A program made the position numbers and the translations under genes. This document shows positions 12,046 to 54,745 of a stretch of DNA of 64,000 nt, piece by piece. Under the pieces are notes generated by a model that ran no database searches, was not told where the DNA came from, and saw nothing but the letters and a program-made list of their open reading frames with translations. The DNA is from Geobacter sp. AOG1. GTDB lineage: Bacteria > Desulfobacterota > Desulfuromonadia > Geobacterales > Geobacteraceae. The first letter of the stretch is position 1; the number at the start of each line of letters is the position of its first letter. The stretch is from contig NZ_BLIZ01000001.1 of assembly GCF_019972315.1 (NCBI RefSeq), positions 1,128,513-1,192,512 on the forward strand, given 5' to 3'.

Positions 12046-12540
12046 ATGTCACTTGAAGGGAAGCAGGCGCCGGCCTTCGAACTGGCCGGAAGCGACGGCA
12101 GGATGCATTCATTGACGGAGTATGCCGGCAAGACCGTCGTCATCTATTTTTACCCCCGCGACAATACGCCGGGTTGCACCAAGGAGGCATGTGGCTTTCG
12201 TGACCACCACCAGACCCTGACGGGGCTTAATGCGGTGGTGCTCGGCGTCAGCAAGGATAGCCTCACGTCCCACGACAAGTTCATCGCCGATTTCAAGCTC
12301 CCCTTCGTCCTCCTCTCCGACCCCGACGCGAAGATGATGGCGGCCTACGGCGCCTTCGGGGAAAAGGTGATGTACGGCAAGAAGACCACCGGCACCATCC
12401 GCTCCACAGTCATCGTCGGCCCGGACGGAAAGGTCGTCAGGCACTGGGCAAAGGTGGCCAAGGCGGAGGCCCATCCGGCGGATGTGCTTGCCTTTCTGCA
12501 GCAGAAACAGGGTGTTTTAGCCGCCGGCGCATCCAAGTGA
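12046..12540 (+). CDS. bcp: Peroxiredoxin, PrxQ/Bcp type
   Basis: Thiol peroxidase of 164 residues with the PrxQ signature YPRDNTPGCTKEACGF; peroxidatic Cys44 and resolving Cys49 are five residues apart, as in Bcp with an intramolecular disulfide. It is cytoplasmic (no signal peptide). GAGGAGG lies just upstream of the ATG. It is followed closely by hemerythrin and the probable selenocysteine thioredoxin, which is a natural reductant for it. Confidence 0.93.
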   Translation: MSLEGKQAPAFELAGSDGRMHSLTEYAGKTVVIYFYPRDNTPGCTKEACGFRDHHQTLTGLNAVVLGVSKDSLTSHDKFIADFKLPFVLLSDPDAKMMAAYGAFGEKVMYGKKTTGTIRSTVIVGPDGKVVRHWAKVAKAEAHPADVLAFLQQKQGVLAAGASK

Positions 12541-12572: not shown

Positions 12573-12983
12573 ATGGGAGTAGAATGGCGACCGGAACTTG
12601 CCATTAACGTGGCGGAAATAGACAAACAGCACCAGGAACTTTTCCGCCGTTTCGACGAACTGCTGAAGGCCTGTGACAGCGGTCAGGGACAGAAGGAGAT
12701 CGCCCGACTGCTGGATTTTCTCGACGATTACGTCCGGACCCACTTCCGCGACGAGGAACGGATCCAGGCCAACAGCAACTTCCCGGGGTACACGGAGCAC
12801 CGCCGACAGCACCAGCAGTTCGTTTCCCGTCTCAACGATCTGAAGCGGCAGCTGGCCACGGACGGCGCCTCGCTCCCCGTCATACTCCAGACCAACCACA
12901 TGATGGTGGACTGGCTCATCAACCACATCTCCAAGCTTGACCGGCAGATCGGCGACTACCTCGCTGCCAAGGCCGGGAAGTGA
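12573..12983 (+). CDS. Bacteriohemerythrin
   Basis: Oxygen-binding four-helix di-iron protein of 136 residues. All expected ligands are present: His20, His57, Glu61, His76, His80, His118 and Asp123 (motifs DKQHQ, HFRDEE, HRRQH and HISKLD). It is a stand-alone domain with no signal peptide, so cytoplasmic. In microaerobic or anaerobic bacteria such proteins store or deliver oxygen, or sense it. It lies 32 bp after bcp and 27 bp before the thioredoxin gene, in what looks like one oxygen-defence transcript. Confidence 0.92.
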   Translation: MGVEWRPELAINVAEIDKQHQELFRRFDELLKACDSGQGQKEIARLLDFLDDYVRTHFRDEERIQANSNFPGYTEHRRQHQQFVSRLNDLKRQLATDGASLPVILQTNHMMVDWLINHISKLDRQIGDYLAAKAGK

Positions 12984-13010
12984 GCAAAGGGAACCGGAGG
13001 AAGGTAGCCC

Positions 13011-13472
13011 ATGACGACCGACAGCACCGTTTTCATCGTGGCCTGCCCGCAGTGCGGCACCGCCAACCGGGTTCCGGCAAGTCGTGAAGGGGATGCGGGG
13101 AGATGCGGCAACTGCCGCGCCCACCTCCCCCCCCTGTATTCGACGCCGGTCCCCCTCACCGACCAAAGCTTCGACTCGTTTGTTAACGCTTATCCGGTAC
13201 CGGTTCTGGCCGAGTTCTGGGCCCCCTGGTGACCGCACTGCCGCGATTTCGCGCCGGTGGTGCGGGAAGTGGCCAGGGGACTGGCCGGGCAGACAGCCGT
13301 CGTTCAGGTCAATACGGAGGAGAACCCCCGGCTTGCCCAGCGGTTCGGCATCCGGGGGATACCGGCCCTTCTCATCCTCCGGCAGGGGAGGGTGCTCGAT
13401 TCCTTCAGCGGCTCCCGCGACAAGAGCTCCCTCATTGCCTGGTTCCACCGGGTGATCCGGCAAGAACGTTGA
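13011..13472 (+). CDS. trxC: Thioredoxin 2-type protein with in-frame TGA, probable selenoprotein
   Basis: A 153-residue thioredoxin with the N-terminal zinc finger of TrxC (C12PQC15 and C32GNC35). The active site reads W-A-P-W-(TGA)-P-H-C77: the TGA at 13230-13232 (codon 74) sits exactly where the first Cys of the CxxC motif should be, and the frame continues through the rest of the fold (FAPVVREVARGL, VNTEENPRLAQRFGIRGIPALLIL) to TGA at 13470. This is the pattern of selenocysteine replacing cysteine. A SECIS-like hairpin follows. Alternative: a nonsense mutation (TGC to TGA) that has made a recent pseudogene, but the downstream half is intact. GGAGGAAGG precedes the ATG. It lies between hemerythrin and nuoA. 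Confidence 0.82.
13248..13266 (+). promoter_or_regulatory. Candidate bacterial SECIS element
   Basis: A hairpin inside the coding sequence, just after the in-frame TGA: CGCGCC (13250-13255) pairs with GGTGCG (13259-13264) including one G-U, extended by two U-G pairs (13248-13249 with 13265-13266). The apical loop is GGT (13256-13258), beginning 24 nt after the TGA. A short stem with a G-led apical loop at this distance is what SelB-dependent bSECIS elements show. Confidence 0.6.
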
Positions 13473-13541
13473 CAAGCAGAGGGTACCGGCTAACATTTTA
13501 GATGCTGCACCCGGTCAGTCGGGGCATGTGCAGAGGGGACG

Positions 13542-13979
13542 ATGCCAAAACCGCCAATTAATACCGTATCGCTACCGACCCCCACTCTCCAGGGGGAGCT
13601 GGCGCCGCTCATTGCCTACACGGCCATAGCGGTCCTTCTCATCGGGGTGCTCCTCCTGGCGGCCTGGTGGCTCGGTGCCCGGCGGCGCAGCGACGTCAAG
13701 GACGAGGCGTACGAATCGGGGGTCATCCCCACCGGTACCGCCCGTCTCGCCTACCCGGTTCCCTTCTACCTGGTTGCCATCTTCTTCATCGTCTTCGACG
13801 TGGAGGCGGTTTTTATCTTCGCCTGGGCCGTGGTCTGGAACGAGCTGGGACTTCCCGGCCTCATCCACATCTCCTTCTTCATCGTGGTGCTCCTGCTGGG
13901 GCTTGTCTGGCTCTGGATCAAAGGGGGGTTAGATTGGGGCCCTTCGCGCGAACAGCTCAAGGATGCTGATGGAAACTGA
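13542..13979 (+). CDS. nuoA: NADH-quinone oxidoreductase subunit A
   Basis: Membrane subunit of complex I, 145 residues with three transmembrane helices (about residues 24-45, 78-100 and 106-127). The conserved acidic segment is present: DEAYESG and the [25 protein letters not shown] block. GAGGGGACG precedes the ATG. It overlaps the start of nuoBCD by 11 bp. This is the first gene of the long nuo operon. Confidence 0.95.
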
Positions 13980-52333: not shown

Positions 52334-52349
52334 AAGAACTGAGGTGGAA

Positions 52350-53441
52350 ATGAATTATCTGGATGAATTCCGTGACCGCCAGGTGGTGCTCGGCTTTGCG
52401 GAGCGCATCAGAGGGTTGGTCACCGGGCGGAGCACCCCCATGACTTTCATGGAGATCTGCGGCACCCACACCATGGCCATCTATCAGTACGGCATCCGCT
52501 CACTTCTGCCGGCGGAAGTGCGGCTCATCTCCGGCCCCGGTTGCCCGGTCTGCGTGACCCCCAACGGTTACGTGGACCGGGCCATCGCCCTGGCCCGCCT
52601 CCCCGGAACGGTCATCGCCACCTTCGGCGACATGGTCCGGGTCCCCGGCTCCAGTACCTCCCTCATGGAGGAGCGGGCGCGGGGTGCGGATATCCGCATT
52701 GTCTATTCTCCTCTGGACGCCGTCGCCTTGGCGGCCAGAAACCCCCAGCTGCAGGTGATCTTCCTCGGGGTCGGCTTCGAGACCACCGCTCCGGCCATTG
52801 CGGGGAGCATCCTGGCGGCGGAACAGCGGGGACTTGCCAATTATTTCGTCCTGACCGCCCACAAGACCATCCCGGTGCCGATGCAGATCTTGGCCGCGGA
52901 TCCGGAGCTTTCCATCGACGGCTACCTCTGCCCGGCCCACGTGAGCGCCATCATCGGCGCCAACGCCTACCGCCCCTTGGCCGAGGAGCAGGGAGTCCCC
53001 TGCGTAGTTACCGGGTTCGAGCCGACTGACGTGATGCAGGGAGTGGAGATGCTGGTCCGACAAGTGCTTGCCGGAGAAAGCCGGGTCGAAAACCAGTACC
53101 GGCGGGTGGTAACTGCGGAGGGAAATGCACGGGCCCAGGCGGTGCTGGCCCAGGTATTCACCCCCTGCGATGTTGAGTGGCGCGGCATTGGGGTGATTCC
53201 CGGCAGCGGCCTCAGGATCGCAGAGCCCTATGCCCGCTACGACGCGGAACGGGCCATACCCGTGGCGGTGGAGGAGTTGCAGGAACACCGGGGGTGCCTC
53301 TGCGGCGAGATACTCAAGGGGAAGGTGAGCCCCTTCGACTGCCCGCTCTTCGCCACCACCTGTACGCCGGAGGCGCCGGTGGGGGCGTGTATGGTGTCGA
53401 GTGAGGGGACCTGCGCGGCGGCCTACAAATACGGCCGTTAG
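52350..53441 (+). CDS. hypD: Hydrogenase maturation protein HypD
   Basis: Scaffold with a [4Fe-4S] cluster on which the Fe(CN)2CO unit is built; 363 residues. Motifs: MEICGTHTMAIYQYGIRSLLP, GPGCPVCVTP, the FETTAPAI segment, and Cys-rich C-terminal blocks (CLCGEILKG, CPLFATTCTPEAPVGACMVSSEG). ATG at 52350 is chosen because GAGGTGG sits upstream. It follows repeat copy C by 16 bp. Confidence 0.95.
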   Translation: MNYLDEFRDRQVVLGFAERIRGLVTGRSTPMTFMEICGTHTMAIYQYGIRSLLPAEVRLISGPGCPVCVTPNGYVDRAIALARLPGTVIATFGDMVRVPGSSTSLMEERARGADIRIVYSPLDAVALAARNPQLQVIFLGVGFETTAPAIAGSILAAEQRGLANYFVLTAHKTIPVPMQILAADPELSIDGYLCPAHVSAIIGANAYRPLAEEQGVPCVVTGFEPTDVMQGVEMLVRQVLAGESRVENQYRRVVTAEGNARAQAVLAQVFTPCDVEWRGIGVIPGSGLRIAEPYARYDAERAIPVAVEELQEHRGCLCGEILKGKVSPFDCPLFATTCTPEAPVGACMVSSEGTCAAAYKYGR

Positions 53442-53611: not shown

Positions 53612-53710
53612 TTTTTTCGCAAGGTCAAGGCGGGCAAGGATTTGGGCGGAGGCGTAGCAGCGCTACGCCGCACAAACGAATCCGCCGCCCAACGCCGAGA
53701 TTGCGGAAAA
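53612..53710. repeat. Long palindromic element between hypD and hypE (copy E)
   Basis: Imperfect palindrome with outer arms TTTTTTCGCAA/TTGCGGAAAA and core GGCGTAGC-AGC-GCTACGCC (53651-53669). It is next to copy D in the same spacer, upstream of the hypE RBS. Confidence 0.75.
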
Positions 53711-53734
53711 GGCGCATCCCTTTCAGGAGGAGAA

Positions 53735-54745
53735 GTGGATAAAGACCTCATATTGTTGGGCCATGGCAGCGGTGGAAAGCTTTCCCACCAGCTCCTGGAC
53801 GAACTGATTATTCCGACCCTGTCGGGGGTTCCGGTGGCGGGGCAAAACGACGCGGCGGTGGTGGAGCACAACGGCCAACGGCTCGCCTTTACCACCGACT
53901 CCTACGTGGTCGACCCGATCTTCTTCCCCGGCGGTAATATCGGCAGCCTGGCGGTGAACGGGACGGTCAACGACCTGGCCATGATGGGGGCGCGGCCGCT
54001 CTTCATGAGCGTCGGCCTCATTCTGGAAGAGGGGATGAGCCGTCGGGAACTGGCCATAATCCTTGCCGCCATGCGGGAGGCGGCGGACAGGGCGGGGGTC
54101 GCCATTGTCACCGGCGATACCAAGGTGGTCCCCCGGGGGAAGGCGGACCGGCTCTTCATCAATACCTCCGGGGTCGGCGTGGTGGAAAACGGGGTGGAGA
54201 TCAACGGCTGCAAGGCCCAGGTGGGAGACCGGGTCATCATCAACGGCACCATCGGCGACCACGGCATCGCGGTGCTGGCGGCCCGGGAGGGGCTGGAGCT
54301 GGCCACCGACATCGAGAGCGACTGCGCTGCCCTGAACGGACTGGTGACCGAGCTGCTCCAGGACGGGGAGGCGCTCCACGTGCTGCGGGATCCGACCCGT
54401 GGGGGGGTGGCGACCACTCTCAAGGAGATCGCCATTCAGTCCGGTGTGACCATAACCCTGCGGGAGGAGGCTCTTCCCCTGAAGAGCGGCGTCAGGGGTG
54501 TCTGTTCCATTCTCGGTCTCGATCCTCTTTACGTGGCCAACGAGGGGAAGCTCCTGGCGATTGTCGCACCGGACCGGGCCGACGCCGCCCTTGCCCGGAT
54601 GCGCAGGCATCCCCTCGGCAGCGATGCCGCCATCATCGGCGAAGTGACCGGTGCCTCCGATGGCCGGGTGCAGTTGGAGACCTCCGTGGGGGGGGTGCGC
54701 GGGGTGGAAATGCTGGCGGGGGAGCAGCTGCCGCGGATATGCTAG
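53735..54745 (+). CDS. hypE: Carbamoyl dehydratase HypE
   Basis: Takes the carbamoyl group from HypF and turns it to thiocyanate by ATP-dependent dehydration. The 336-residue protein starts at GTG 53735 with AGGAGGAG upstream and begins DKDLILLGHGSGGKLSHQLL. It has PurM-like blocks (VNGTVNDLAMMGARPLF, DPTRGGVATTLKEIA) and ends with the required C-terminal Cys (LPRIC). Normal length for the family. Confidence 0.95.
   Translation: MDKDLILLGHGSGGKLSHQLLDELIIPTLSGVPVAGQNDAAVVEHNGQRLAFTTDSYVVDPIFFPGGNIGSLAVNGTVNDLAMMGARPLFMSVGLILEEGMSRRELAIILAAMREAADRAGVAIVTGDTKVVPRGKADRLFINTSGVGVVENGVEINGCKAQVGDRVIINGTIGDHGIAVLAAREGLELATDIESDCAALNGLVTELLQDGEALHVLRDPTRGGVATTLKEIAIQSGVTITLREEALPLKSGVRGVCSILGLDPLYVANEGKLLAIVAPDRADAALARMRRHPLGSDAAIIGEVTGASDGRVQLETSVGGVRGVEMLAGEQLPRIC

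Follow-up and report, generated by a model that had tools for sequence, protein, structure and literature searches.

Thioredoxins in which selenocysteine (Sec) is the first residue of a UxxC active site are treated as an established selenoprotein family in sections of two reviews (PMC13188914, PMC9312934). For Geobacter, the relevant part of PMC1794560 counts a thioredoxin as a selenoprotein in Geobacter metallireducens, sulfurreducens and "uraniumreducens," and Table 1 of PMC1914089 carries the entry "Thioredoxin TGA 3, Geobacter sulfurreducens (GSU3446)." GSU3446 adjoins complex I by number, since an excerpt of PMC5585712 assigns GSU3429–GSU3445 to a type E complex I. As far as these excerpts go, the gene described here resembles the Sec-thioredoxins of G. 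sulfurreducens (GSU3446), G. metallireducens and G. uraniireducens in its in-frame TGA and in belonging to the same bacterial group, and its map position is alike too, GSU3446 bordering the complex I cluster by number and the present gene preceding nuoA. The species are different as far as can be told, and the match is one of name, group and map position. A Sec-thioredoxin of Geobacter is already predicted in these printed sources, and its kind is known.

Another comparison is with TrxC (thioredoxin 2), which shares with the present protein the thioredoxin domain and an N-terminal zinc ribbon of the Thio2 family. In contrast to TrxC, however, our protein has Sec in place of the first Cys, falls below the NCBIfam cut-off for TrxC, and has P-H rather than G-P between the active residues (G-P is seen in Acinetobacter relatives). 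A literature search for a zinc-bearing Sec form of thioredoxin 2 found none, which is not evidence of absence. A Sec-thioredoxin, reportedly from Treponema denticola, was studied by Kim et al. in 2015; as it appears in the tables of two reviews (PMC9312934, PMC13188914), it is likewise a UxxC thioredoxin of Pfam PF00085. What the present analysis adds is a hairpin conserved across the order, three apparent replacements of Sec by Cys, and two TGA-form draft genomes without detected selA, selB or selC.

The gene and the selenocysteine machinery of its genome

The window, by which we mean the whole 64,000-nucleotide stretch analysed, contains a single thioredoxin reading frame on the + strand at 13011–13472, running from an ATG to a terminal TGA at 13470–13472 and holding one internal TGA at 13230–13232. 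This is codon 74, within a W-U-P-H-C motif, and the first-pass annotation was right to place it at the first active-site Cys. Read through the TGA, the gene encodes 153 residues including Sec74, an assignment drawn from the translation, the list of open reading frames (ORFs), Pfam and the relatives. That ORF callers would split such a gene had been foreseen, and the plain ORF list does cut it in two, at 13011–13232 and 13257–13472.

In profile searches of the window protein, for which U was entered as C, Pfam Thioredoxin (PF00085) matched residues 47–145 (93.3 bits, cut-off 23.5) and Zn_ribbon_Thio2 (PF21352) matched residues 11–37 (33.8 bits, cut-off 27.1), the latter corresponding to a CPQC ... 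CGNC ribbon at 13041–13121 (+). The best NCBIfam model is TrxC (NF008229), with 118.6 bits, below the equivalog cut-off of 125. Thus, of the earlier claim that the protein carries the zinc finger of TrxC, the ribbon holds, and strict membership of TrxC is not fully borne out. The cis-Pro residue of thioredoxins stands opposite the active site, and its loop appears to be represented in the window protein by R-G-I-P.

The genome holding the window (one contig of 3,677,207 bases) has all four genes for which a search had been proposed: selA (1.5e-184), selB (376.5 bits with its neighbour in frame, cut-off 242.25), selC, the tRNA-Sec (74.7 bits, cut-off 47), and selD (L017; 369.8 bits). A tRNA scan of the window found none, and selC sits elsewhere in the genome. 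The selD frame itself has one internal TGA, read as G-U-A-A-K near the N-terminus, and selD is therefore very probably another gene here that uses TGA as Sec. Thioredoxin reductase (trxB; 384.5 bits, cut-off 343.45) is also present, as is a second thioredoxin without an internal stop, at 36% identity. Within the window, 53642–54745 gives a distant match to the SelD family (50.2 bits, under the cut-off); this gene resembles HypE, and a presumably HypD-like gene adjoins it at 52344–53441.

Conservation of the codon and of a downstream hairpin

To collect relatives, we searched 141 genomes of the order and fetched every locus that scored above 100 bits, which gave 89 relatives in 84 genomes; among the matches listed, the other 57 genomes had lower-scoring ones or, for a single genome, no match at all. 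Eleven Geobacterales loci (L020–L030; 4 TGA, 7 Cys) are not counted here, since the contig of at least L020 agrees in length and place with one of genome G007. The check suggested for codon 74 came out clearly, with TGA in 77 relatives, TGC in 8, TGT in 4 and no other codon, so that all 89 carry either TGA or a Cys codon. The frame beyond the TGA is conserved, as had been claimed, without the decay expected of a dead gene: 75 of the 77 TGA relatives have 75 or more further open codons, and the two that fall short are one cut by a contig end (L070) and one broken copy (L064). The broken copy, in G004, is decaying, with a second in-frame TGA at the hairpin end and a short open frame upstream. 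The N-terminal C-x2-C ... C-x2-C pattern occurs in 85 of the 89 rows, and the four that miss it (L064, L089, L138 and L139) are truncated, broken or N-filled. The description of a zinc-ribbon Sec form as notable was overstated, since the ribbon is common to the local family and Geobacter Sec-thioredoxins had already been tabulated. The gene is real and intact, and its apparent internal stop codon is almost certainly read as selenocysteine.

Five genomes have two TGA-form copies each: L051 and L080 in G007, L066 and L081 in G006, L119 and L133 in G054, L129 and L137 in G055, and L101 and L111 in G096. The residue before Sec is W in one copy and T in the other in four of the five; both are T in G096.

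Starting 15 bases beyond the UGA, positions 13248–13266 (+) form a SECIS-type hairpin, supported by folding and by pair conservation, with an 8-bp stem and a three-base GGU loop at 13256–13258. In the TGA rows, 23 bases separate the TGA from the start of the three-base loop. All six core pairs are formed in 76 of the 77 rows (L081 lacks one pair), and the loop begins with GG in 76 of 77 (L069 has GT). The family thus shows a hairpin just after the TGA with a small loop in which G comes first, as is looked for in a SECIS, and we take the layout to be that of bacterial elements. A search of the genome with Rfam SECIS_1 (RF00031), which we take to be the eukaryotic element, found no match, and was uninformative because none was found in 14 controls either. 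In an Rfam scan of 12900–13600, four weak matches, presumably to animal RNA families, lay far below gathering scores and were judged to be chance.

Pair statistics were computed on the 64 rows, from the 77, that are distinct over 48 bases. The eight-pair stem is formed in 98.4% of cells, compared with 35–62% when the pairing is slid by 1–3 columns. Both-sided changes occur in three of the eight pairs (8 cells), including a switch of one pair from C-G to U-A in 4 rows. Of 500 shuffles, none matched the covariation score, but 5 reached the number of pairs changed on both sides and 103 the count of pair types, and two of the eight pairs are invariant. Synonymous codons, counted over all 77 TGA rows with near copies included, are frozen at the hairpin (Pro codon 8 is CCG in 77/77, Val codon 10 GTG in 77/77, Ala codon 7 GCA in 75/77) and unfrozen at comparison positions (Pro codon −28 CCG in 36/75, Val codon 23 GTG in 30/77, Ala codon 14 GCA in 22/77).

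In the window's own stem, one A-U pair is now G-U. When the 48 bases from the TGA are folded, a rival hairpin is the lowest-energy structure and the family hairpin has a probability of about 0.09. The family hairpin becomes the lowest-energy fold with the first 9 bases omitted (0.98–1.0) and with the first 15 omitted (0.83–0.84), but with 12 omitted its probability is about 0.2. Among the 77 TGA rows, 18 fold otherwise when all 48 bases are used, and 0, 3 and 1 do so with 9, 12 and 15 bases omitted. The first bases downstream would be hidden beneath a ribosome standing at the UGA, and such masking may operate in the window gene.

Cysteine forms and the distribution of sel genes

In ten of the 12 Cys forms the GG loop is gone, together with between one and four of the six core pairs; three of these ten have lost a single core pair, so that decay is partial there. 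The other two, L136 (G118) and L138 (G049), keep the whole loop and stem, and both genomes keep selA and selB. In a tree of 86 family rows and 3 Acinetobacter outgroup rows, from which L064, L089 and L139 (broken, truncated, or with a run of N) were omitted, the Cys label requires three changes: one in a clade of ten (100/97) and one each in the single rows L136 and L138. The branches that place L138 are below star level, yet it lies within a starred clade otherwise made up of TGA rows. All three Cys groups are nested among TGA rows, the pattern that Sec-to-Cys replacement predicts. The Cys forms probably arose by such replacement, which would be old in the clade and recent in the two single rows.

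Remnant SECIS structures behind Cys codons have already been described for other families, according to the part of PMC1794560 that deals with them. As it appears there, the Trx row holds 7 Sec sequences and dashes elsewhere, and the two middle columns of Table 1 give Sec/Cys conversions. Because of these dashes, Sec-to-Cys events in the Trx family may have gone uncounted in that survey.

A selB (E ≤ 1e-58) was found in 67 of the 72 TGA genomes and in 10 of the 12 Cys genomes. The five TGA genomes without selB are all drafts; three of them have selA, and G081 and G104 do not. In G081 (L108; 96% complete) and G104 (L106; 92%), no selA, selB or selC was found, the tRNA-Sec search having scored 150 candidates in each and detected the expected positives, G000 and G079. 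A selD is present in G104, and none over the cut-off was found in G081. Both L108 and L106 are TGA-form thioredoxins with an intact hairpin, and the two genomes may reflect either gaps in the draft assemblies or Sec decoding that was lost recently. In the Cys genomes G088 and G091, no selA, selB or selC was found, and selD is kept.

How the TGA is read, and what the gene may do

A first rival reading makes the gene an outright casualty, a Cys codon having mutated or been misread to a stop; the visibly broken relative L064 and the two TGA-form drafts without detected selA, selB and selC could be cited in favor of such a pseudogene or sequencing error. However, the same TGA occurs in 77 of the 89 loci with the tail intact in 75 of the 77, and silent positions within the hairpin are conserved, making this reading very improbable. 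The two drafts could also accommodate decoding of TGA as some other residue, such as Trp or Cys through near-cognate read-through. Against this stand selB at E ≤ 1e-58 in 67 of 72 TGA-form genomes, all four sel genes in the window genome, and a hairpin with the layout of bacterial SECIS elements, and we consider such decoding less probable still. We accordingly rejected a pseudogene, a sequencing error and non-Sec decoding alike, on TGA conservation, intact tails, hairpin and sel genes. As remote as non-Sec decoding is the idea that termination is deliberate, with the 73-residue zinc-ribbon piece as the main product and the TGA and hairpin acting as a selenium-sensing switch that gives the full length only if Sec-tRNA is plentiful. 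The frame before the TGA does comprise a complete zinc ribbon and the start of the thioredoxin domain, and UGA read-through is well known to depend generally on SelB supply, but the second half is maintained as protein sequence, and in 12 relatives an ordinary Cys codon occupies this place.

Selenocysteine insertion best fits the conserved TGA/Cys codon, the hairpin, the sel genes and the published precedent taken together. To judge from sequence comparison, we consider it very highly probable that the gene encodes a zinc-ribbon thioredoxin with Sec as the attacking active-site residue, inserted at UGA74 via the hairpin and SelB. With the ribosome at UGA74, the hairpin would recruit SelB carrying Sec-tRNA(Sec), and selenocysteine would be inserted at this codon. 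The U-P-H-C site of the protein, presumably located in the cytoplasm, would then reduce disulfides or peroxidase intermediates of partner proteins, and the oxidized site would be recycled by thioredoxin reductase, probably the TrxB encoded in this genome.

The neighbouring genes offer some hints as to partners. Upstream on the same strand lie a peroxiredoxin at 12046–12540, which we take to be of the Bcp type from the first-pass annotation and its motif, and a protein at 12573–12983 that the same annotation named hemerythrin-like; downstream, 13542–13979 (+) encodes a presumably NuoA-like protein at the start of a complex I cluster. With flanks of 45 to about 4,240 bases available per locus, so that some neighbours were out of view, 16 of the 89 loci have a nuoA relative that begins 268–502 bases downstream of the TGA, 8 have a Bcp relative upstream, and 5 have a hemerythrin relative a short way upstream in the same orientation. 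An association with complex I and oxygen defense is thus a feature of the branch to which the window gene belongs and of a few more, rather than of the family at large. These neighbours suggest an oxygen-defense role for the Sec-thioredoxin, and Bcp might, at a guess, be an electron acceptor. As a more speculative and rather unlikely proposal, in the branch where complex I and Bcp are neighbours, the Sec-thioredoxin could be a dedicated fast electron donor that couples the removal of peroxide to electron flow in respiration and to the supply of selenium. If true, the several changes from Sec to Cys in other parts of the order would point to lineages that have lost that demand, or selenium.

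At the level of annotation, one intact selenoprotein gene is recovered that would otherwise be annotated as two false genes. For the family, the order-wide set amounts to a natural experiment, in which the same protein occurs with Sec and with Cys in close genomes and the decay of the hairpin after replacement can be traced.
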